Source: Planctomycetia bacterium | Lineage (GTDB): Bacteria; Planctomycetota; Planctomycetia; Pirellulales; Thermoguttaceae | Assembly (NCBI GenBank): GCA_030537455.1 | Contig: JAUNMR010000002.1 | Span: 1 to 64,000, forward strand | Direction: 5' to 3' | DNA length: 64,000 nt | Part shown: positions 37,046 to 49,154 of the stretch, one piece after another | How positions within the stretch are numbered: the stretch's first letter is position 1 | Layout: the number at the start of each line of letters is the position of its first letter | Position numbers and translations under genes: made by a program | Notes under the pieces: model-generated | Databases searched by the model: none | Told to the model about the DNA's origin: nothing | What the model saw: the letters and a program-made list of their open reading frames with translations, nothing else

Positions 37046-40000
37046 CTAAAGTTGTGCAATTTCCGAACCGTTTTCGGCGTTGGCGTTCGCCATATCCGAT
37101 CCTTCAGGCTTCGCAACGCTGGGACGATAGATCCCGAGTTCATCGACGCCGTCGCCATTCCAGTCGCCTGTGACGGGACGGTCGCCCGCTTGGAATTCCT
37201 GGAAGCTGACGGTCTTGTCTAGACGGTGATCGCCGTCGACGTCCAACATCCACTTGCCGTCTTTGAAGATGCCAATAGTATCGATACCATCGCCATTCCA
37301 GTCGCCTACAACCGGAGTATAACCGGCGCCACCAACATTTCTGATCAAAACGTCGCCGTCGTCCCAACGTCCGTTGCCGTTCATATCGAGGTACCAATCG
37401 CCGCCACGATAGACTCCGATCTTACTGACGCCGTCGCCATTCCAGTCGCCGATGAGCGCGTAATCATCCTTGGAGCCGTATTCAAATACGTGGTCGATCA
37501 AGTCGTAACGCGTTTGACCGGAGTCAAGTCGTCGAGCACGGCGAATATTGAGTTCGGCCTGGTGGAAAGACGCTTCTGTTTGGATGTTCTTGGCACGACC
37601 TGCCGGAGTGGAGATATTCGCGTCACTCGGCAAACCGGGTTCCAGAGAAATTGCCAGGGAGTCGTCTGTCCATTTGGGACCGAAGATACCGATATCGTAT
37701 TTCCCGTCGCCGTCCCAGTCGCCAGTGACAGGTTGATCGCTACCTGTGCCTAGTTCAGCCAGAACGTCCATTTCGTCCCATTCGCCATTGCCGTCACGAT
37801 CGAGGTACCATGTACCGGCAATGAAGACGCCGATCTTGTCAACGCCATCGCCGTTCCAGTCGCCAACGACCGGAGTCGCGTCGCTCAGACCGAAGCTGTA
37901 GCGATTGACAACGTTGCCGTTCGTATCGCAGAGGAACCATTGCCCCGATTCGAGTTTTGAGAGACTTACTGACGAAACGTTCATCAAGACGCTTTGGTCG
38001 TTGAGGGAGTTGAGACCGTTGCGGAAACCGTAGGTAGTCGTCAAAGCTTCGAGTGAACGCGGCGAAGTCGCGTCTAGAACGCTCAAGTGCCAGGAGTAGG
38101 ATTCCGTGAAGCCCCCACCGCCGCCGTATAGCGTCGTCATACTGCCAGGTATTGACGGTTGGTACCAGATGTACGGGAACGCTGTGGGCGAGGGCGCCCA
38201 AAGGTTGTTAGGCACTGGCGTTGGGCTAGGAGGCGTGCCTTCGGGAATATAGGGCTTGTCAGGTTCGGTCGGCAATTCGCCAAAGTTGTATTCCACGCCG
38301 TGGTCATTCGGCATGACCGGGATCGAGTAAAAGACGTCGTTGCTGACTTGACCGCCGAGTGAACCAATTGTGTCCTTACCGTCAATGTAACCTTTCGGCT
38401 GTGTTTCGACAATGCGGTAAACACGCGCCGGCTCTAGATTATCGAAGAGATAGTAACCGTCTGCGTCGGTTTGAACGACGCGTCCGGTCGCCTCGTAGAG
38501 ACCTGTTTCTTCATTGAGAATGTAAAGCGTAACTGGTACGTTAGCGATAGGCGCTTCACCTTCGTCCATAATACCATTGTCGTTGTTGTCTTCGTAGACG
38601 TAACCGCTCAAAGAACCAGGCTTGAGTTCGCCGAAGTCATAGTGAACGCCTTGACCACGACGCGGTAGGAGAATGTCGACGAGTTCGTCGTTATCGCCGA
38701 GTGAACCGACTGTTTCGCCAAAGATCGTACCTACGGCGTCTTTTCCGTCGTAGTATGCACTCGGTTGAGTTTCGCGCACGATATACGTTTTGTCGGGTTC
38801 TAGGTTATTGAACAGATAGAAACCGTCGCTGTCGGTCAGTTGAGTCGCTTGAAGAACGGCATGGTTATTTTCGTCAAGTACGTACAACGAAACCAAAACG
38901 TCTTTGATTCCAGCCTCACCGTCGTTCTTCACGCCATTGTTGTTATTGTCTTCGTAGACATAGCCGCTCAAAGAACCCAACGGAGTCAGTTCGCCAAAGT
39001 TATACTCTTGACCGTGCTGATCCCACAGAATGCGCACTTTGTCCATATAGTCGTTATCGGCAACATTGCCTCCGAGCGACCCGATCGTATCTTTGCCGTC
39101 GTCCCAATCACTAGGCTGAATTTCACGAACTGCATAGGTCTGTTCGATATCGAGCGAGTCGAACTTGTAAAAACCTTCGCTGTTGGTCGTCGTTTCTGCG
39201 ATCTTGACATAGTCTTCGCCGTCCAAGCGATAGAGTTCGACGGTAACATTGGCGATTCCTTCTTCGCCGTCTTCTTTTAGGCCGTTGTCGTTACGGTCGT
39301 GATAGACATAACCGGAGATGGAACCAAGTTTGAGTTCGCCGAAGTTGTAGTCCACGCCGTGGTCGTCCCACTGCACGTCGATTTTGTCAATGTAATCGCT
39401 TTCGGAGAGTTGACCGCCAAGCGAGCCGACAGAGTCTTTACCGTCAGTATATTCCTCGGGCTGTTTCTCGCGAACGGCATACTCCTTATTGATATCGAGT
39501 TTGTCAAAGAGGTAAGAACCGTCTTCGGCGGTTTGGGTTTCAGCGATCTTAACGTAGTCGGAGCCGTCCCACTGGTACAGTTCTACAACAACGCTTCCGA
39601 TACCGGGCTCGGCGTCGTCGAAGAATCCATTGTCATTACGGTCTTCATAGACGTTGCCAGCGATGGAACCAAGTTTGAGTTCGCCAAAGTTATACTCGAC
39701 GCCGTGTTGATCCCAACCGACTGCGATATCCGAGAAGTAGTCGTTCGTCTTTTGACCGCCGAGCGAGCCGATCGTGTCCTTGCCGTCGTCGTAAGCGCTC
39801 GGTTGCAACTCTTTGACAGCGTACTCTTTATTGATATCGAGATTATCGAAGAGGTAGGAGCCGTCTTCATCTGTTTGAGTCTCGGCGATTTTGACGTAGC
39901 TAGCGCCGTCCCACTGGTACAGTTCGATCGTTACGCCGGCAATACCCGCTTCACCGTTGTCAATAATGCCGTTGTCGTTACGGTCTTCATAGACGTTTCC

Positions 40001-41563
40001 GGCAATGGAACCGAGTTTAAGTTCGCCGAAATCGTAGTGGTAGCCATGTTGACCGTAGCCGACAAAGATATCGGTGAGGACGTCGTTATCAACGGTACCT
40101 CCGAGGGTTCCAATGTAATCCTTACCGTCGGAGTAATCGCTTGAGGCGAAGACTTCGCGAATCTCGTAGGTTTTCTCGGGCAATTTGCGCAAAGAGTGCG
40201 CTTCATTCCATGAACCGTCAAGTTCGAACTTGTAGTGACCTTCTGCGTCGACCGTTTGCGCTTCCATAAAGGTATAGGTCGCAACGCCAGACGCGTCGTA
40301 ATCTATTCTATAGAGTTCGATTCTAGCGGGATAAGTCACGCCGTCCCAGGATTCGCCAGATTCTTTACCGTTGGCGTCATTGAGATCTTCAAAGACGTAA
40401 CCTTCGATACTACTGACGAGAACCTTTGCAAAGTTGTTGTCAGGCGCAACGTCGCCGCCCTGCATACCTTTGACGTCAATTTCAATCGGCGTGATCTTTT
40501 CACCATACTCGCCGCCCTTAGCACAGAAGTCGAAGTATTGCCAACCTTCCGGGGAGATCAGATCAGATTCCGAGAAGATTTGATACTCACCCGGCATGAG
40601 ATCGTCACTATTGAATTCGTAATAGCCGTTTGCGTCAGTCGTCGTATACCATTTGTCGCCATTTTCCGAAACCAGTGTGACGCCAACGCCGGCGATAGGA
40701 TCGTCGGTATCGTCGAAATTACAGTCGACGTCGTAGTCGGCGTAGACGTAACCGGAAACGATGATCGGTTTGGGCGTTAAGTCAAATTTGTCGTAAATAC
40801 CAGCTTGGTCGAGACCCTCGTTTCCGTCGTCGAGATCGTAGGGCAGAAGCGTTCTGTCATAGCCGTCGCTAAGCGCCTCAGAACGCGTGTACTCTTCGTC
40901 GTACATGTCGACGAACATTCCTGTCCAAATCTCTGGTTGATAATGATCCGAGCTGAACAGTGCAGTTGCCGTGGCGCCGTTGATACCTTGGACGACCGAA
41001 CCGCCCATTTCGCCGGCCTCTACCTGCGCGTTATTTGAGTCGATAGAGGAGTTCGTTTGGTATTCGTCCAGGTCGATCACGAATACAAAGTGGTCGCCTG
41101 CGTAGAAATTCGTGAAGCTGATCGACAGCGTCATCCCGCCGTCTTCAACCTCGTATGAGTAACCAATGTGATCAGTCTTGTCGACCAAAGTGAACGGAAC
41201 TGACGAATAGACGCCTAGACCGCCCTGTTGCGTGTCGAAGAACGGTTCGCCATCGTCGAGCTGACCGTTGCCGTTCTTATCGAGATTAATGACCAGAGAG
41301 TCGAGCGTCGTCGACCCGTCTTCGCCTCCAACCCAGGCGACGAAGAATTTATCGCCCAAGTTCTCGGTGTTTTGTTCCGCATAGACGACGCCGACAGAAA
41401 TCGGATCAGCGGCGAGGTATTCGCGCTTCTCCAACTCTTCGAATCTGAATACACGTCGCCTCGAGGCGTCATGCGCCGACTTTTTAGCGCTCTTACGTCG
41501 ACCACGCTTCGATTTTTTCGTCAAGTCAGATTCAATCGCGTGTTTTTTCATTAAAAGCGACAT
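37046..41563 (-). CDS. Giant secreted protein: LEPR-like N-terminal motif, seven SdrD B-type domains, five FG-GAP/VCBS-like blades
   Basis: The 1505-residue protein has a strongly basic start ('KKSKRGRRKSAKKSA') followed by 'FRFEELEKREYLAA', a form of the N-terminal LEPR-type motif of large planctomycete secreted proteins. After about 230 residues come seven SdrD B-like domains (about 38265-40760), each opening with 'GYVYEDNNDNG' or 'GNVYEDRNDNG' and closing with 'YNFGEL'. This is a calcium-binding Ig-like fold in staphylococcal adhesins. A short proline-rich linker follows. The C-terminal part has five blades with 'GDWNGDG' or 'GDWDGDG', each offering a calcium-type Asp loop. It is probably a surface or matrix adhesin (inference). 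GAGGA precedes the ATG. Confidence 0.85.
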   Translation of the reverse strand: MSLLMKKHAIESDLTKKSKRGRRKSAKKSAHDASRRRVFRFEELEKREYLAADPISVGVVYAEQNTENLGDKFFVAWVGGEDGSTTLDSLVINLDKNGNGQLDDGEPFFDTQQGGLGVYSSVPFTLVDKTDHIGYSYEVEDGGMTLSISFTNFYAGDHFVFVIDLDEYQTNSSIDSNNAQVEAGEMGGSVVQGINGATATALFSSDHYQPEIWTGMFVDMYDEEYTRSEALSDGYDRTLLPYDLDDGNEGLDQAGIYDKFDLTPKPIIVSGYVYADYDVDCNFDDTDDPIAGVGVTLVSENGDKWYTTTDANGYYEFNSDDLMPGEYQIFSESDLISPEGWQYFDFCAKGGEYGEKITPIEIDVKGMQGGDVAPDNNFAKVLVSSIEGYVFEDLNDANGKESGESWDGVTYPARIELYRIDYDASGVATYTFMEAQTVDAEGHYKFELDGSWNEAHSLRKLPEKTYEIREVFASSDYSDGKDYIGTLGGTVDNDVLTDIFVGYGQHGYHYDFGELKLGSIAGNVYEDRNDNGIIDNGEAGIAGVTIELYQWDGASYVKIAETQTDEDGSYLFDNLDINKEYAVKELQPSAYDDGKDTIGSLGGQKTNDYFSDIAVGWDQHGVEYNFGELKLGSIAGNVYEDRNDNGFFDDAEPGIGSVVVELYQWDGSDYVKIAETQTAEDGSYLFDKLDINKEYAVREKQPEEYTDGKDSVGSLGGQLSESDYIDKIDVQWDDHGVDYNFGELKLGSISGYVYHDRNDNGLKEDGEEGIANVTVELYRLDGEDYVKIAETTTNSEGFYKFDSLDIEQTYAVREIQPSDWDDGKDTIGSLGGNVADNDYMDKVRILWDQHGQEYNFGELTPLGSLSGYVYEDNNNNGVKNDGEAGIKDVLVSLYVLDENNHAVLQATQLTDSDGFYLFNNLEPDKTYIVRETQPSAYYDGKDAVGTIFGETVGSLGDNDELVDILLPRRGQGVHYDFGELKPGSLSGYVYEDNNDNGIMDEGEAPIANVPVTLYILNEETGLYEATGRVVQTDADGYYLFDNLEPARVYRIVETQPKGYIDGKDTIGSLGGQVSNDVFYSIPVMPNDHGVEYNFGELPTEPDKPYIPEGTPPSPTPVPNNLWAPSPTAFPYIWYQPSIPGSMTTLYGGGGGFTESYSWHLSVLDATSPRSLEALTTTYGFRNGLNSLNDQSVLMNVSSVSLSKLESGQWFLCDTNGNVVNRYSFGLSDATPVVGDWNGDGVDKIGVFIAGTWYLDRDGNGEWDEMDVLAELGTGSDQPVTGDWDGDGKYDIGIFGPKWTDDSLAISLEPGLPSDANISTPAGRAKNIQTEASFHQAELNIRRARRLDSGQTRYDLIDHVFEYGSKDDYALIGDWNGDGVSKIGVYRGGDWYLDMNGNGRWDDGDVLIRNVGGAGYTPVVGDWNGDGIDTIGIFKDGKWMLDVDGDHRLDKTVSFQEFQAGDRPVTGDWNGDGVDELGIYRPSVAKPEGSDMANANAENGSEIAQL
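38265..40760 (-). repeat. Tandem repeats encoding seven SdrD B-like domains
   Basis: The period is roughly 345 bases. Approximate unit boundaries are 40760-40530, 40410-40010, 40015-39680, 39670-39320, 39320-38985, 38985-38625 and 38625-38265. The units at 40015-39320 are nearly identical in protein and close in DNA, so they are recent copies. The first two units are more divergent. Confidence 0.8.
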
Positions 41564-41852: not shown

Positions 41853-42956
41853 TTACGGTAGTTTCCACTTGATGATCGTGGTGTCGTAACTGCCGCTGTA
41901 AATGACTTTTTCGGTCGGATCGTACAGGAGAGTTGCGACGGTGCCGGTGTGCTTGGCAGTGGAGTCTTCTAAGTCGTCCTGTCCAAGGCTCTGAGCCTTA
42001 ATTGTTTGGGTTCCCAGATCCCAAACGCGAACTTTATTGACGCTGTCGCCGCTCACAAGCGTGTCGTTACCACAGAAGATTAGCGAAAAGACCTTGCCTT
42101 CCGGTAGCGTCAGCCTGGCGACGAGCTGACGGTTTTCAATATTCCATACGAGAATTTGATTGCTATCGCCCGCGGCGGCCACAAGGGTTTCGTCTTCGCT
42201 AAAAGCGATCGCGCGAATACGACGACTTACGAAAGACTGTTCGGAAGTGAGCTGGGTATTGAGCGTAGCGCCCACGTTTGCTTTCCAGACGCTTAGCGCG
42301 CCGTTACGACCAGCCGCGGCGACATACGACCCTTTACTTGAAACCGTTAAACAAGTGCAATTTTCGGTTGGCGCCGGTAATTTGTGATTGTACTGCTTGA
42401 GATTTGGTTCGTAGAACAAAATGGACGGTTCAAATCCACTAACAACCAAAAAATTACCTGCCGAGGAATACGCAAGCCCATGCGCCCCGGTGAGCGGTAC
42501 GCGCGTTTCGTGAAGCTTCTGCTGGGTCTTGAGATTCCATACTTCCATCTGACCGTTTTGCGCCAGGGTTACAATTCTTGGGTCGCCGCCTGCGTCGGGC
42601 GCGTTGCTAGGAATTAAGGCGATGGCGCGGATCCAGTCGGATTTGCGTGTGAAGAGACGTTCGACTGTTTCTGTTTCGAGATTCCATGCATAAACGTAAT
42701 GATCGTCCCCCCCCACATAGAGTCGTGAGCGATCTTCTGATTCTGCCATTGACGTTACAGTCGGACGTAGGTCGACGTTTTCAAACAATCGGACGTTCGT
42801 GCCAAAGTCATATTTATTAACAGGCGTAAGTCTCGGCGTTTCGCCTAAGTTTTGCGCGTGCGCGACCGTATTCTGTAGCACAACGGCGCTCGCGAATGAC
42901 AGTAGGAGGCAAATAACGCCACGTACGAGCGACCTAGAACTTGATACTCTTGGCAT
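41853..42956 (-). CDS. Secreted WD40-repeat protein
   Basis: About 367 residues from the ATG at 42956, which is followed by a signal peptide ('LVRGVICLLLSFASAVVLQN', cleavage near AHAQ) and preceded by GGAG. The open frame extends 58 codons further upstream but that part is not signal-like. WD-type blades are visible: 'YVGGDDHYVYAWNLET', 'LAQNGQMEVWNLKTQ', 'AAAGRNGALSVWKAN', 'AAAGDSNQILVWNIEN', 'VSGDSVNKVRVWDLG' and 'YSGSYDTTIIKWKLP'. This gives a six- or seven-bladed propeller ending exactly at the C-terminus. It probably binds partners outside the cytoplasm. Confidence 0.85.
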   Translation of the reverse strand: MPRVSSSRSLVRGVICLLLSFASAVVLQNTVAHAQNLGETPRLTPVNKYDFGTNVRLFENVDLRPTVTSMAESEDRSRLYVGGDDHYVYAWNLETETVERLFTRKSDWIRAIALIPSNAPDAGGDPRIVTLAQNGQMEVWNLKTQQKLHETRVPLTGAHGLAYSSAGNFLVVSGFEPSILFYEPNLKQYNHKLPAPTENCTCLTVSSKGSYVAAAGRNGALSVWKANVGATLNTQLTSEQSFVSRRIRAIAFSEDETLVAAAGDSNQILVWNIENRQLVARLTLPEGKVFSLIFCGNDTLVSGDSVNKVRVWDLGTQTIKAQSLGQDDLEDSTAKHTGTVATLLYDPTEKVIYSGSYDTTIIKWKLP

Positions 42957-43038
42957 AATGTGATACTCCAACGTTTCTGTAACGTTCGGCGCGTCTGACG
43001 TTTTTCTATCTTTTCTACGCGGAAACGTCCAAAGAGGC

Positions 43039-43066
43039 AAAGTTTCACTGCATGTTGCGAAACTTT
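43039..43066. repeat. Inverted repeat AAAGTTTC / GAAACTTT, spaced
   Basis: AAAGTTTC at 43039-43046 and GAAACTTT at 43059-43066, spacer 12 bases. The same half-sites occur fused at 43155-43170. The location is the 687-base divergent region between the WD40 and exporter genes. It looks like a paired binding site for a regulator (inference). Confidence 0.5.
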
Positions 43067-43073
43067 TTCTTGT

Positions 43074-43127
43074 GACGTGTGTTAAATATGTGGATCTCGC
43101 GTGCATAACGCGAATTTGACACACGTC
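43074..43127. repeat. Inverted repeat GACGTGTGT / ACACACGTC
   Basis: Arms at 43074-43082 and 43119-43127, with an inner GCGT/ACGC pair. It lies directly between the two AAAGTTTC palindromes. Confidence 0.5.
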
Positions 43128-43154
43128 CACACTCCTTATCGGCAGTGAAGACGT

Positions 43155-43170: not shown

Positions 43171-43643
43171 AATCGGAAACCATATAACTGATAGGATTTG
43201 TACTTGTAGAGTTTTTGATCGTGTCGAAACTGTCAATTTAAAGGATCGTTATAACAGCGCAAAGTAGTGAAAATATAAGCGTCGTGTCGAGAAGTAGAAT
43301 TGGGAACAATCAATCTGCGGTATTATGGTAAAAACCACGGGAAAAAACTTGTGGATTACGCATATGTGCTTATCCTATATATTACGCCCCGTTACGTGTT
43401 GATTTTGAAATATTCGCAAAGGCGACGCGATTTTTTCAATGCGCCTGTAATTGACCTTTCCTCAACACAGACGTGCGTTTCACGCGCCTCACACTTAAGG
43501 AGAGACGACGTCACAAGGTTCAGGACGTACAATCTCCGAACTTTGATATATTGCTCAGCGACGTTTCCGCGTTAGACGTCGATGGAAAAGCGAGTCTGAC
43601 TGTGCTTTGACGCAAAGATTGAGTGATTCGTAAGGGAAACCTA

Positions 43644-46600
43644 ATGTTAAAACGAACGAAACAAAAAGAAAAAGAACGTGCGAACGTTTCGATGCAAATT
43701 CGACATGGCGGAGCCGCCAAGATTGTCGTCTTTTTGCTCATCGTTGCAGTGGTAGTCGGCGGCGCCTTTGCCTGGCGGTGGAAGCGTTCGCACACGACCA
43801 AGCAAGTGAATCTGATTTTTGCGACAGTCGAGCGCGGCACTTTTATTCACGAAGTTAGCGGTAAAGGTAGCGCGGAAAGCGCTAAAAACGTCGACGTCGC
43901 GTCACAAGTGGAAGGCACCGCGACTATTATCTATCTGATTCCAGAAGGCTCCAACGTTAAAAAGGGCGACCTCTTGGTCGAATTGGACTCCTCTGCTATC
44001 GACGAAAAGTATGACTCGCAAGTCGTTACCACCAATAGCTCTCGCGCTACTCTCAATAGTTCACGCGCGACTCTGCGCTCCAATGAGATTTCTTTGGAAG
44101 AATACGTGGAAGGCACGTTCGAACAGAGCTGGATGGAGTATGCAAACACGATCTTCGAAGCGGAACAAACGCGCAAGCAAAACGCTGATAGCGCACGCTT
44201 TACCGAACACCTTCTCAATTTGAATTACTCCACCGAGCTTCAGTACGAAATCGATAAAGTCGCTGAAGAAAAGGCGAAGAATTCTCTTGAAGTCGCCAAT
44301 CTCAAGAAGAATACTCTGCTGAAATTCACCAGCGAAAAGCAGATTACCTCCTTGATGTCCGATATAGAAACGGCGCGCGCTAAGGTAGAGTCCGATAAGA
44401 ACTCCTATAATATTAACCTCAGCCGTGAGAATCGCTTGCATCAACAATCTCAAAACTGCAAGATTCTTGCGCCACAAGACGGACAAGTTGTTTACGCCAA
44501 TCAAGACTCTCGTCGTATGTCCGAATCTGATATGATTAAGGAAGGTTCGACCGTGTATCAACGACAGGTCTTGATTCGCCTACCTGACAAGACCCAGATG
44601 CAGGTTAAGACTATGATTAACGAGTCGAATATCTCGGCCGTCAAGACCGGTATGCCTGCGAAGATCTCATTCGACTCAATCCCGAATCGTGTTATCGAAG
44701 GCGAGGTTGTTAAGGTTAATCTTTATCCTGAAATCGTATGGATGTCCTCTGCGAAAGACTATGTGACTTTGGTCAAAATTAAGGAAGACGTAGAAGAACT
44801 ACGCTCCGGTTTGACCGCCCAGGTTCGTATTATCGCAGACGAACAGACTGACGTCCTCATGGTTCCCGTACAATGTGTTACCGAATATGGTAAGAAAACC
44901 TACTGTATTACCTATACAGACGGTAAGTGGGGCTATAAGGAAGTACTACTCGGCGCTTCCAATGAAAAGCAAGTCATAGTTCTAGGAGGTTTGGAAGAGG
45001 GCGACGTTGTTGTCAGCGGCGCGCGCCTATACCGTGACAATGTGGAATTTCCCGCTCCTGACGCTCCTTCCGACTTTGAAAATTCCGAAGTCTATCAAGA
45101 GAAACTTCTTGCGGCTAAGGAGGAAGAAGAAAAGAATGCCGAAATTGAAGCTGGCGGGTTGCCTGAGGGCGGTTTCCCCGGCGGCGGAATGCCCGGCGCT
45201 GGTTTTCCTGGCGGCGGCGCGCCTGGCGATGGCACAACTGGCGATGGTTCCCCTGGACGTGGAAGACCAGAGGGCGGTATGCCGAATCCCGATATGCTCG
45301 CTGGATTGGCAGAAAAGATTAGCTCTGGCGATATTCCACCCGAAGTCTTAGCTAATATTCCTCCTGAACTCTTGGCTCAAATTCAAGGCGGTAGCTCTGA
45401 GCAACTCAGTGACGCCGAGCTTGAAAAATTACGCCAGAAAGAGGAAGCGGCTGCGACCTATAACCGTTCGATCACCGAACGTCTGGAACGCGATGGAAAA
45501 GTCGCCAGGATCGAACCCTTCTTTACGCGTACCGTCATGGAGATGCAACGCGAATTGCTTGCCGCCATTTCCACGCGTACCAATGAGGTTCGTGCGCGCA
45601 TTGCCACTCGCCAAAATGCAATTTCGCGTCGCCAAGACGAGATTGAACTACTTCAAAAGTCTGCTTCCTCTGATGATTCTAGCGCTGACGCCTCCGAGCA
45701 GATCGAACGTTTGACCGAAGAAATCAAGACTCTTCGTGGAGATTCTGATTACGACGTCCTTGAACGCGTTGTCTACGACGATTTGATTGATTGGGAACTC
45801 TATATTCACGGTAATGATATTACCAGAGAGGCATTGACGTTCCTTTCGGAAGATCCAGACTACCTCTTTAATCAGCTCTTCCCGAATTCCAGCGAAGTTG
45901 ACTCTGTCGTTAAGTTGGATACCGAGGGAATTGAAGACGTCGCTGATCGTCTGGAAGTTGAGACCGACGAGGATTGGCTTGATTCTTCTGACTCAACTAG
46001 CGCTAGTTTAGACTCAAACGATCGCGACTCTATGCAACAATATGCCGCCTTCCTGCCGCTCTTTGATCTGTGGGATACTAATGGCAACGGTATACTAACT
46101 CCAACCGAATTCGTAATCGGGTTCTTTTCTGATCGCAAGGGTTTCCAGAACACCGAAACGGACGACGTGATCGACGGTTATTTCGCCGAATATATTCCTG
46201 GCGATTCCGACGCAAAAGAGTTCTCGCTCGAAGAAGCGCAACCGATAGTCAATCGCATTCTGAGTGAACGTTCCGACGCCGACTCCTCTAGAGCCGACGC
46301 CTCTAGATCTTCGCGTCGTGGCGGTGGTCGCGGTGGAAATCGTGGCGGTATGGGGTCGATGACCGGTATGCCTGGCGGTTCGCAGGGCGATCCGATCGGC
46401 GGTTCTCAAGGCGGTATGCCCGGTGCGCCACAGGGTGGAAACGATCAAGACGTCAGCTCTAGAGTCGCCGAAGGAGCGCCGGGCGGCGAGGGTAATCCTC
46501 GGATGGGCGCGCGTCCTCCGCGTGGAGACGGCGCACAAGGTAATGACGAGGGACAGCCTCCTGCACGTCCAGAAGGCGATAATCGCCCGATTCAGAGTCT

Positions 46601-46817
46601 TGCGGAAGCTACCAGTCTGCGTCAAGCTATCGCGTTCTACCTGCCGAAAATCGACTTCGATAATGACGGTTACATTCAAAAGTCTGAATTCGTTGTAGGC
46701 TATAATGAGATCAAAGAGGTTGTCGGCAAAATGTTTGCGAATGTTACGACGGTGAACGCCGTTGATAACGGCGGCGGCATGGGGGGCATGGGCGGCTTTG
46801 GACCTCCACCGCGCTAA
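43644..46817 (+). CDS. MacA/HlyD-type efflux adaptor with long EF-hand-bearing C-terminal extension
   Basis: About 1057 residues from the ATG at 43644 (AGGGA upstream; an in-frame GTG at 43623 is less likely). One membrane helix ('IVVFLLIVAVVVGGAFAW', about 25-43) anchors it. Residues of about 55-465 form the usual adaptor: lipoyl-like strands ('VASQVEGTATIIYLIPEGSN', 'VKKGDLLVELDSS'), a long coiled coil, the second lipoyl half ('NCKILAPQDGQVVYA') and the beta-barrel ('MPAKISFDSIPNRVIEGEV'). Ordinary members end near there. A further 590 residues follow: a Gly/Pro-rich stretch, a helical segment, a canonical EF-hand loop DTNGNGILTPTE (about 811), another Gly-rich stretch and a second loop DFDNDGYIQKSE (about 1003). 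It heads the macAB-like operon. Confidence 0.88.
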   Translation: MLKRTKQKEKERANVSMQIRHGGAAKIVVFLLIVAVVVGGAFAWRWKRSHTTKQVNLIFATVERGTFIHEVSGKGSAESAKNVDVASQVEGTATIIYLIPEGSNVKKGDLLVELDSSAIDEKYDSQVVTTNSSRATLNSSRATLRSNEISLEEYVEGTFEQSWMEYANTIFEAEQTRKQNADSARFTEHLLNLNYSTELQYEIDKVAEEKAKNSLEVANLKKNTLLKFTSEKQITSLMSDIETARAKVESDKNSYNINLSRENRLHQQSQNCKILAPQDGQVVYANQDSRRMSESDMIKEGSTVYQRQVLIRLPDKTQMQVKTMINESNISAVKTGMPAKISFDSIPNRVIEGEVVKVNLYPEIVWMSSAKDYVTLVKIKEDVEELRSGLTAQVRIIADEQTDVLMVPVQCVTEYGKKTYCITYTDGKWGYKEVLLGASNEKQVIVLGGLEEGDVVVSGARLYRDNVEFPAPDAPSDFENSEVYQEKLLAAKEEEEKNAEIEAGGLPEGGFPGGGMPGAGFPGGGAPGDGTTGDGSPGRGRPEGGMPNPDMLAGLAEKISSGDIPPEVLANIPPELLAQIQGGSSEQLSDAELEKLRQKEEAAATYNRSITERLERDGKVARIEPFFTRTVMEMQRELLAAISTRTNEVRARIATRQNAISRRQDEIELLQKSASSDDSSADASEQIERLTEEIKTLRGDSDYDVLERVVYDDLIDWELYIHGNDITREALTFLSEDPDYLFNQLFPNSSEVDSVVKLDTEGIEDVADRLEVETDEDWLDSSDSTSASLDSNDRDSMQQYAAFLPLFDLWDTNGNGILTPTEFVIGFFSDRKGFQNTETDDVIDGYFAEYIPGDSDAKEFSLEEAQPIVNRILSERSDADSSRADASRSSRRGGGRGGNRGGMGSMTGMPGGSQGDPIGGSQGGMPGAPQGGNDQDVSSRVAEGAPGGEGNPRMGARPPRGDGAQGNDEGQPPARPEGDNRPIQSLAEATSLRQAIAFYLPKIDFDNDGYIQKSEFVVGYNEIKEVVGKMFANVTTVNAVDNGGGMGGMGGFGPPPR

Positions 46818-46951: not shown

Positions 46952-47698
46952 ATGTCAGATAATAAAAAGAATAAGAAGATCGAGCCGTCCCCCAGTTCTT
47001 CTCAAAATTTTTTTGCCGCTAAGCTCACTGGCGTCAAGCGTGAATATGTGCTCAAAGGCGAGACTGTTTACGCTCTGCGTGGCGTCGACTTGGAGGTGCC
47101 CGAGGGCGACTATGTCGCTATTATGGGCGCTTCTGGTTCCGGCAAAAGTACTATGTTGAACCTGTTGGGGTGTCTGGATAGACCGACTCACGGTAAAATA
47201 TGGCTGGGTCATGACGACGTTACCTCGCTTGACGACGATCATCTCTCTGAGATTCGTGCTTCACGTATCGGGTTCGTTTTTCAATCATACAATCTCATCC
47301 AGCAACTTACGGTTATCGAAAATATCGAGGTTCCGCTATTCTACCAAGGTAATGTAGGTCTGCGTTCTCGCAAACGTTGTATTGAATTGGCGAAGATGGT
47401 GGGACTGGCTGAGCGTCTCAACCACCGTCCGTCGCAACTTTCCGGTGGTCAGCAGCAGCGCGTGGCGATTGCACGCAGCCTGGTGAATGATCCGTACTTT
47501 ATCCTGGCAGACGAACCGACGGGAAATTTAGACTCGAAAACGACCGCGGAAATCCTCGAGCTACTCGATAAACTCAGCGCACAAGGTCGTACGATCATCT
47601 TGGTTACGCACGAGGACGACGTCGGCGCGCGTAGTAAACGTATCGTGCGTTTACGCGACGGTTTAGTTGAATCGGATACGCGTCTGAAACCGATTTAG
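46952..47698 (+). CDS. ABC transporter ATPase, MacB/LolD type
   Basis: The 248-residue ATPase has Walker A GASGSGKST, Q-loop 'GFVFQSYNLIQQLTVIENIE', signature 'LSGGQQQRVAIARSL', Walker B 'FILADEPTGNLDS' and switch 'VTHED'. This pattern is the MacB/LolD/FtsE group that powers mechanotransmission rather than ordinary import. It lies between the adaptor gene and the permease gene, 22 bases before an early permease start. With them it forms a tripartite-type exporter. ATPase and permease are separate polypeptides here, unlike fused Escherichia coli MacB. Confidence 0.92.
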   Translation: MSDNKKNKKIEPSPSSSQNFFAAKLTGVKREYVLKGETVYALRGVDLEVPEGDYVAIMGASGSGKSTMLNLLGCLDRPTHGKIWLGHDDVTSLDDDHLSEIRASRIGFVFQSYNLIQQLTVIENIEVPLFYQGNVGLRSRKRCIELAKMVGLAERLNHRPSQLSGGQQQRVAIARSLVNDPYFILADEPTGNLDSKTTAEILELLDKLSAQGRTIILVTHEDDVGARSKRIVRLRDGLVESDTRLKPI

Positions 47699-47810
47699 TC
47701 GTGGCGTAAATTAACAAAACTTGAGTTCGCGCGTCCGCAAACTTAATTCAAATGTCGGGCGTGTAGCGACTTACGTTATTTGCTTTGATAGCATAGGTAA
47801 AACGTACAAG

Positions 47811-49154
47811 ATGAGACACGCGTTTCAAACGTTGCTTTCCGGCGTTAAGAGCCTCTATCTCCACCCGATGCGCTCGCTCCTTACGGTGCTTGGTATTTTT
47901 ATCGGCGTGGCGAGCGTTATTTGGCTTATGGCCATTGGCGAGGGGATCAGTCGTAAAGCACAAGAACAGATCGAGAGTTTAGGCGCTGATAATATTATCG
48001 TGAGCACAATCAAGCCGCCTAACGAGGCGCTCTCCTCCGGAAGCGGCGGTCGTGGTATGCAGATCCCGGAATACGGTCTGACGCGCGCCGATTACGAGCG
48101 ATTGACAGAAACGATTCCAACCATCGTGAACTCTGCGCCGGTAAAGGATTATCAGGAGACGTTTCAGAACGGTCGTTGGAAGGTTGACGGGCGTTTGGTC
48201 GGTTGTACCGCCGCCTATGCTGACGTCGTTAAGATCACGATGTTCGACGGGCGATTCTTTACCGACGAGGAAAACTCCGAAGCGCGCGACTATTGTGTTT
48301 TGGGCTCGGGCGTTGCTCAAACGCTCTTTCCCTATGAGGAGCCGATCGGTAAATTGATTCGCGTCGGCGAGAACTATTATTATCGCGTTATTGGCGTTGC
48401 AAATTCCCGCGCGCCTTCCGCGGCTATCGGTAGCTCATTGAAATCGGAAGACTATTCTTACGACGTCTATATTCCGTTGCAAACAATGCAGACGCGCGTT
48501 GGCGATACCGTCGTGGTGCGAAGAAGCGGTTCTATGGAGGGCGAAACTGTCCAGCTCAAACAGATAACTCTAAAAGTCGGGCAGGTTTCTGACGTTATGC
48601 AGACGTCTGAATTGATTAAGTTGACCATCGAGAAATATCATACAAAGTTCGAGGATTACGGCATTACCGTACCGCTGGAGCTTTTGGAACAAGCCAAAAC
48701 GACGCGTATGATGTTTAACGTCTTCATGGGCTTGATTGCCGGTATTTCGCTAGTGGTCGGCGGTATCGGGATTATGAATATCATGCTGGCGACGGTCACG
48801 GAGCGTACGCGTGAAATTGGTATTCGTCGCGCGCTCGGCGCTAAACGTGGCGATATTGTTCGTCAGTTTCTCATTGAGACGATTGTTTTGTCAGTCGTGG
48901 GCGGTGGTTTGGGCGTTTTAGTCGGTCTGACATGCGCGCCCGTGACAACCTTTGTGATGAATATTCTCAAGAAAACGAATCCCGAACTACTTGCAAGCCT
49001 ACCGTCGATTGTGCAGGAACTTAAACCGATTATTGTCTTTTGGTCCGTGCCGCTTGCGTTTTTGATCTCGATCGTTATCGGCGTGGTTTTTGGCGTTTAT
49101 CCGGCAATTCGCGCCGCTAAGATGGATCCGATCGAAGCGTTGCGTCACGAATAA
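47811..49154 (+). CDS. ABC transporter permease, MacB/FtsX type
   Basis: The protein is about 447 residues from the ATG at 47811 (MRHAFQTLLSGVKSLYLHPM); an upstream TTG at 47721 gives a poor N-terminus. A first helix ('SLLTVLGIFIGVASVIWLMA') is followed by a large periplasmic domain of about 260 residues. Three closing helices contain the FtsX core: 'LVVGGIGIMNIMLATVTERT', 'REIGIRRALGAKRGDIVRQF', and the ending 'GVYPAIRAAKMDPIEALRHE'. This is the MacB-type permease layout. The export substrate is unknown; macrolides, lipoproteins and peptides are precedents in the family. A strong terminator follows. Confidence 0.9.
   Translation: MRHAFQTLLSGVKSLYLHPMRSLLTVLGIFIGVASVIWLMAIGEGISRKAQEQIESLGADNIIVSTIKPPNEALSSGSGGRGMQIPEYGLTRADYERLTETIPTIVNSAPVKDYQETFQNGRWKVDGRLVGCTAAYADVVKITMFDGRFFTDEENSEARDYCVLGSGVAQTLFPYEEPIGKLIRVGENYYYRVIGVANSRAPSAAIGSSLKSEDYSYDVYIPLQTMQTRVGDTVVVRRSGSMEGETVQLKQITLKVGQVSDVMQTSELIKLTIEKYHTKFEDYGITVPLELLEQAKTTRMMFNVFMGLIAGISLVVGGIGIMNIMLATVTERTREIGIRRALGAKRGDIVRQFLIETIVLSVVGGGLGVLVGLTCAPVTTFVMNILKKTNPELLASLPSIVQELKPIIVFWSVPLAFLISIVIGVVFGVYPAIRAAKMDPIEALRHE

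Follow-up and report, generated by a model that had tools for sequence, protein, structure and literature searches.

A MacA-like exporter adaptor with an elaborated EF-hand tail in a gut genus of planctomycetes

We analysed a window of 64,000 nucleotides (positions 1 to 64,000 of contig JAUNMR010000002.1, Planctomycetia bacterium assembly GCA_030537455.1) and focused on the gene at 43644-46817, on the plus strand (as are all features below unless stated otherwise). ORF (open reading frame) and domain searches showed that it encodes a periplasmic adaptor of 1057 amino acids, composed of a membrane anchor, a MacA/HlyD core and a tail with EF-hands. The tail is an elaborated form of a compact four-EF-hand tail that is found on the orthologous adaptors of two sister genera, g56 and g60. 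Here we describe the gene, its architecture and conservation, the homology of its tail and its predicted fold. In the usual description of a tripartite exporter, the adaptor terminates at the membrane-proximal domain. Adaptor, ATP-binding cassette (ABC) exporter and EF-hand are each known, and their combination in one protein, in this elaborated form, is apparently undescribed: no description of the adaptor plus EF-hand architecture was found in the titles and abstracts of the literature, with few subscription journals covered.

The gene is a single, uninterrupted open frame of 1057 codons plus stop. Its ATG start at 43644 lies ~10 nt downstream of a ribosome-binding-like AAGGG, which makes an in-frame GTG at 43623 the less likely start. 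Residues 25-48 (43716-43787) are hydrophobic and form a helix in the AlphaFold2 (AF2) model; with this N-terminal segment as a membrane helix, the C-terminus and hence the tail would very probably be located outside the cytoplasm. The core (residues 59-466; 43818-45041) was delimited by matches to HlyD_D23, HlyD_3 and RND_mfp, by Foldseek and by core identity, and comprises a barrel-sandwich part, a long helical hairpin (117-271), a β-barrel and a membrane-proximal part. Both HlyD_D23 (PF16576; 34.9 against a cut-off of 30 bits) and HlyD_3 (PF13437; 30.9 against 22.2) passed their thresholds; RND_mfp (TIGR01730) scored 86.9, slightly below its cut-off of 94.9, and its match reaches residue 463. 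The MacA equivalog PRK11578 gave 77.1 bits against a cut-off of 342, so that the adaptor resembles MacA without qualifying as MacA proper. Modelled by AF2 in full length, the protein takes an adaptor fold that matches adaptor structures at E ~5e-14 in Foldseek, the top structures for the core including those of MacA (9qgy, 5nik and 4dk0, ~20% identity). By its domains and predicted fold the protein is a HlyD/RND_mfp-type periplasmic adaptor. The original prediction, read from the letters of the window, had described a MacA-type adaptor with a core ending near residue 465, an extension of about 590 residues and two canonical EF-hand loops. Both the end of the RND_mfp match and that of the core, at ~466, agree with this boundary, the tail was counted at 591 residues, and the two loops were found at exactly the described places; with the HlyD domains above their cut-offs and the loops conserved, the EF-hand tail on a MacA-type adaptor is genuine.

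In the tail, a Gly/Pro-rich linker (linker 1, residues 504-548; 45153-45287) is predicted to be disordered, with a predicted local distance difference test score (pLDDT) below 50; in several related genomes the assembly is interrupted at or close to this linker. Two coiled-coil helices follow within residues 631-698 (45534-45737), present only in this genus according to the alignment; AF2 models them at 631-676 and 680-698, and in a model of the tail by itself their pLDDT is at least ~90. The remnant of a first EF-hand (EF-a, residues 699-735; 45738-45848), which reads GDSDxD ... NDITRexLxFL and was recognised by alignment to the loops of the sister genera and by AF2, is modelled as a strand (725-727) plus a helix. 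EF-b is a helix-loop-helix at residues 790-835 (46011-46148; Pfam, alignment, AF2 and hhalign) with the loop DTNGNGILTPTE at 811-822 (46074-46109), identified by sequence and conservation. EF-c (residues 841-874; 46164-46265; alignment and AF2) is degenerate in the window protein and in most species, and canonical (DEDADGTVAIDE and similar) in four congeners (G008, G010, G015 and G017). It is followed by the disordered Gly/Pro/Arg-rich linker 2 (residues 878-977; 46275-46574; pLDDT <50), fast-evolving by identity and by the ratio of non-synonymous to synonymous substitution rates (dN/dS), and by the helix-loop-helix of EF-d (residues 992-1035; 46617-46748; Pfam, alignment and AF2), whose loop DFDNDGYIQKSE, likewise identified by sequence and conservation, occupies residues 1004-1015 (46653-46688).

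The EF-hand loop pattern was found in full, with oxygen ligands at positions 1, 3, 5 and 12, a hydrophobic residue at position 8 and helices on either side. In Pfam, EF-hand_6 reached 25.6 bits, above its cut-off of 25, and EF-hand_1 reached 23.7, slightly below its cut-off of 25.4. Since shuffled versions of the tail contained a mean of 0.03 strict loops, compared with the two observed, and since the ligands at positions 1, 3 and 12 are kept among relatives, chance is excluded as the source of the loops. Two AF2 models agree on a helix-loop-helix at b, c and d, on the strand-helix remnant at a and on the disorder of the linkers; the folded units mostly have a pLDDT above 80 in both, and further short strands are predicted at 859-861 and 1010-1012. 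The earlier description of two EF-hands thus stands for the canonical loops, but it leaves out an original first EF-hand, now broken up by the coiled coil, and a third, degenerate one between the loops.

A profile of the tail was searched over 119 genomes of the family and 294 of the phylum. Full-length relatives were found only in the window genus and partial matches in g56 and g60; everywhere in these genomes the tail was attached to adaptors or to their contig-end fragments, none being a stand-alone protein, and a stand-alone tail family was rejected on this ground. The matches in g56 and g60 sit on orthologous adaptors (cores 46-56% identical) with compact tails in which Pfam EF-hand models and alignment place four EF-hand motifs in series. 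The joint alignment shows that an F..T.ME block runs into EF-a in the window genus and in its sisters, that in the window genus the EF-a loop is opened by an inserted coiled coil of ~65-90 residues, with GDSD.D and NDITR on its two sides, that the EF-b signature WD.N.DG.L..T[DE][LF]VIGF...R..[FY]Q is common to the three genera, and that a Gly/Pro-rich linker of ~100 residues parts EF-c from EF-d in the window genus. A comparison of the two tail types with hhalign gave E=5.4e-10 for the EF-b region only; for a, c and d, homology is concluded from the genomic setting, the order in which the units occur in the protein, the multiple alignment and the model. Adaptors of g56 and g60 (e.g. L149 and L146) resemble that of the window in their orthologous core, homologous tail and neighbouring WD40 and SdrD_B genes, but their four motifs are compact and the first has no coiled-coil insertion. 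The sister-tail profile A7 matches calmodulin-like PDB chains (best E=2.2e-6), and four sequential EF-hand units are common to the sister tails, calmodulin and other four-EF-hand proteins; unlike calmodulin, the window tail is tethered, would lie outside the cytoplasm and has two of its four sites degraded.

In a tree of 65 cores, g1, g56 and g60 form one clade (support 100/100), and EF-hands are present in 19 of its 21 rows; the two exceptions are L102, which is cut by a contig end, and L117_304, whose loops are degenerate. At the latter locus (L117, G086:C211, 304-4048), two paralogous adaptors lie in tandem; their branches are very long and their tails hold an EF-a/EF-b-like pair only. They are distinct from the 931-codon orthologue of the same genome.

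The host of the window is an uncultured planctomycete, with a genome (G000) of 3.73 Mb in 83 contigs. Records of its congeners are metagenome assemblies labelled Thermoguttaceae or uncultured planctomycete, many of them from the ruminant gut (rumen, omasum, cecum or rectum; hosts goat, water buffalo or water deer). Full-length adaptors of ~1000-1060 residues are encoded in eight of these (G005, G006, G007, G002, G013, G001, G012 and G018), each ending in a natural stop, and in G008 a single frame runs from the core into the tail and reaches the contig edge inside EF-d. At least ten species of the genus carry the fusion, and the tail belongs to the same protein wherever the gene is complete. 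The adaptor is broken within the core in G004 and lies in pieces in G009, G010, G011, G015, G016 and G017. Such pieces could suggest a separate downstream EF-hand gene joined to the core through a missed frameshift or an assembly error, a weakness that the original prediction had named, but they end at contig ends, mostly inside the Gly-rich linker, and one frame is open from core to tail in nine other congeners, so that gene fission or frameshift was rejected and the chance of an artefact is negligible. The contig that holds the G017 tail (L032, G017:C82; 8150-8273, minus strand) begins with KTAIREASQFYVQLRNMGFDIEYIDAGGGMGVDYDGG, presumably a piece of an arginine decarboxylase that meets the tail of the adaptor in a Gly-rich stretch, and its start is a probable misassembly.

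Within the genus, positions 1, 3, 8 and 12 of the EF-b loop are kept in 16 of 16 species and position 5 in 15 of 16; in EF-d, positions 1, 3, 5, 8 and 12 are kept in all 16. A lack of ligands in homologues, which would have spoken against the loops, was thus not found at positions 1, 3 and 12 of either loop. The mean pairwise identity was 85% for the core, 56% for the helical part, 57% for EF-b/c, 64% for EF-d and 31% for linker 2. The dN/dS values were 0.06-0.27 for the coiled coil with EF-a, 0.04-0.31 for EF-b/c, 0.25-0.9 for linker 2 and, apart from a group of four species (G008, G010, G015 and G017), 0.04-0.11 for EF-d. The loci of this group (L010 in G008, L032 in G017, L034 in G010 and L036 in G015) have a canonical EF-c, and three of the four have lost Gly6 of EF-d; the working site may have been swapped there.

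The tail is not confined to one genus. Among 70 adaptors, nearly all of one order, the tails contain 73 strict EF-hand loops where shuffled sequences would give 0.25, and in family f21 (same class, another family) an EF-hand pair ends many orthologues. Class-mates with a C-terminal EF-hand pair (e.g. L110, L175, L186 and L188) have the same core and Gly/Pro-rich linker as the window adaptor, and an ATPase and a permease adjoin them where this was checked (L110 and L175); their tails, in contrast, measure ~100-180 residues, with one EF-hand pair and neither the coiled coil nor the second linker. The extension is therefore real but not unique to this adaptor, being the most elaborate form of a class-wide EF-hand tail. 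Outside the class, 27 adaptors of the phylum were informative, and none of them ended in an EF-hand pair. Over the whole tree of 65 cores, the presence and absence of EF-hands requires 13 changes.

The adaptor gene is followed by two separate genes, one for a MacB-type ABC ATPase of 248 amino acids (46952-47698; PF00005, E=5e-32; best NCBIfam match MacB) and one, a 477-codon ORF, for a MacB/FtsX-type permease (47721-49154; MacB_PCD, PF12704, 1.2e-36; FtsX, PF02687, 2.3e-21), and the order adaptor-ATPase-permease is kept in most relatives examined. With 235 and 185 bits against a cut-off of 966, the two genes do not qualify as the fused MacB polypeptide. Judged by sequence, the locus is a split-gene, MacAB-like ABC exporter of the MacB superfamily with a predicted shared operon. 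Like MacA of the E. coli MacAB-TolC system, the window protein is an anchored periplasmic adaptor with a long helical hairpin, encoded beside a MacB-type ATPase and permease; unlike MacA, it has the EF-hand tail, separate ATPase and permease genes and no adjacent annotated outer-membrane factor. None of the annotated neighbours in the window matches such a factor, and an adjacent one was rejected. Several ORFs elsewhere in the window genome match OEP, and in the class-mate L188 an OEP gene lies immediately upstream of the EF-tailed adaptor.

The best explanation overall, to which we give somewhat better than even weight, is that the tail is a Ca2+-loaded, tethered periplasmic docking module. 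The core would work in the same way as other adaptors of MacB-type pumps; the protein would be anchored in the cytoplasmic membrane, and its body and C-terminus would lie in the periplasm. In MacAB-TolC, ATP hydrolysis in the cytoplasm drives movements that the permease relays to the periplasmic side. Adaptors of this kind have their C-terminus close to the membrane-proximal domain, so linker 1 would begin near the permease. The lineage has extended the core by a flexible linker of Gly and Pro and by an EF-hand domain that descends from a compact four-EF-hand tail; in this genus, a coiled coil opens EF-a, b is a good site, c is degenerate and d stands past a second long linker. The tail, which probably binds Ca2+, would fold on the ion constantly available outside the cytoplasm and serve as a docking or cross-linking arm that keeps a periplasmic or surface partner or substrate by the exporter, with several arms per pump, such adaptors being oligomers. 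Extracytoplasmic Ca2+ is usually high enough to keep EF-hands loaded, and for this reason a permanently loaded docking domain is favoured over a switch, although docking as such is held only tentatively.

Several points weigh against the docking module. Gly/Pro tails without EF-hands are present in 22 of the 65 tree rows, and since many orthologues carry them, the exporter in itself does not require the EF-hand tail. Gly6 is kept in only 12 of 16 species in EF-b (lost in four) and 11 of 16 in EF-d (lost in five), and dN/dS of EF-d rises to a relaxed 0.37-0.57 in the G008/G010/G015/G017 group. When the tail model was compared with PDB structures by Foldseek, no match was significant (best E=2.8), so that the fold assignment rests on sequence and model; several of the weak matches are EF-hand proteins. 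Ca2+ binding is itself a prediction from the loops and the model, and docking is favoured through reasoning, its partner or substrate being hypothetical.

Less probable, yet the strongest of the alternatives, is a generic planctomycete envelope module that binds cell wall or matrix and anchors the pump, with no specific role in export. At least four other ORFs of the window genome, of 1023, 477, 183 and 168 codons (L178, L179, L180 and L181; contigs C29, C72, C50 and C3 of G000), combine EF-hands with Gly/Pro-rich stretches, the 1023-codon one having also an FGE-sulfatase domain, and this pairing therefore appears to be a wider habit of the lineage; the frequent gain and loss of EF-hands on the adaptor tree agrees with such a module. 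On the other hand, the conserved signature that runs from F..T.ME through the EF-b motif continues past the loops in three genera, which suggests a more specific role of the tail.

The original prediction had instead proposed a calcium-responsive exporter, in which Ca2+ would alter the shape of the tail and gate adaptor-permease coupling or the recruitment of the outer-membrane channel. The canonical, conserved loops and the predicted multi-EF-hand domain with disordered linkers would be compatible with this reading, but long disordered linkers transmit conformational change poorly, orthologues without EF-hands retain the same operon, and EF-hands outside the cytoplasm are normally always loaded. 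We found no evidence for responsiveness and nothing that points to switching, and consider this reading improbable. The other possibility named in the prediction, a calcium-stabilised exporter, is plausible.

A role for the tail in the export or calcium-dependent folding of a neighbouring surface protein is similarly improbable. A giant SdrD_B-repeat surface-type protein of 1505 amino acids is encoded on the minus strand at 37046-41563 (PF17210, E=3e-72, six stretches; best NCBIfam match MSCRAMM SdrD, under its cut-off), and between it and the adaptor, also on the minus strand and divergent from the adaptor, lies a gene for a WD40-repeat protein (41853-43130; domain search) that adjoins the adaptor in g1, g56, g60 and g63. 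In these four, the order SdrD_B-WD40-(divergent) adaptor-ATPase is kept, with the permease next where the contig extends, and SdrD_B domains of the staphylococcal protein bind Ca2+. However, the WD40 and SdrD_B neighbours were not found beside EF-tailed adaptors elsewhere in the order, g63 keeps them with an adaptor that lacks the EF-hand tail, and MacB-type exporters load from the periplasm, for which a surface protein of this size would be unusual cargo. The first two of these observations make the link between tail and surface protein no more than suggestive, and we regard it as doubtful. Least probable in this series is that the EF-hand tails sense extracellular or periplasmic Ca2+ and thereby control export or assembly of the SdrD_B protein; if true, a calcium-sensing exporter arm would couple calcium to the building of the cell surface in a gut planctomycete lineage.

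Across a bacterial class, predicted calcium-binding modules have often been added to the end of an adaptor, and in one gut genus the addition has become an arm of 590 residues. Such tails form a natural series (none, a pair, four, elaborated) on which the contribution of a tethered module to an exporter could be studied. The tail of the window genus is a concrete case of bacterial EF-hand domain evolution, including the loss of a site through insertion.

Some further features of the neighbours and of more distant adaptors were observed. The WD40 protein evolves fast (29-37% identity between congeners), and the N-terminal FEELEKREYLAA of the giant SdrD_B protein resembles a LEPR-XLL sorting motif. 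In other classes of the phylum, six loci (L222-L227) have adaptor frames of 1012-1498 codons that open far upstream of the HlyD domain; Pfam gave no further domain in them at E below 1e-5, and the upstream parts represent either N-terminal fusions or reading frames that run long in GC-rich DNA. Adaptors of these classes (L213, L216-L219, L222, L234 and L236-L238) have, in place of EF-hands, Gly/Pro-rich tails with helical repeats of the M[ST]PEERxKMRxR type.

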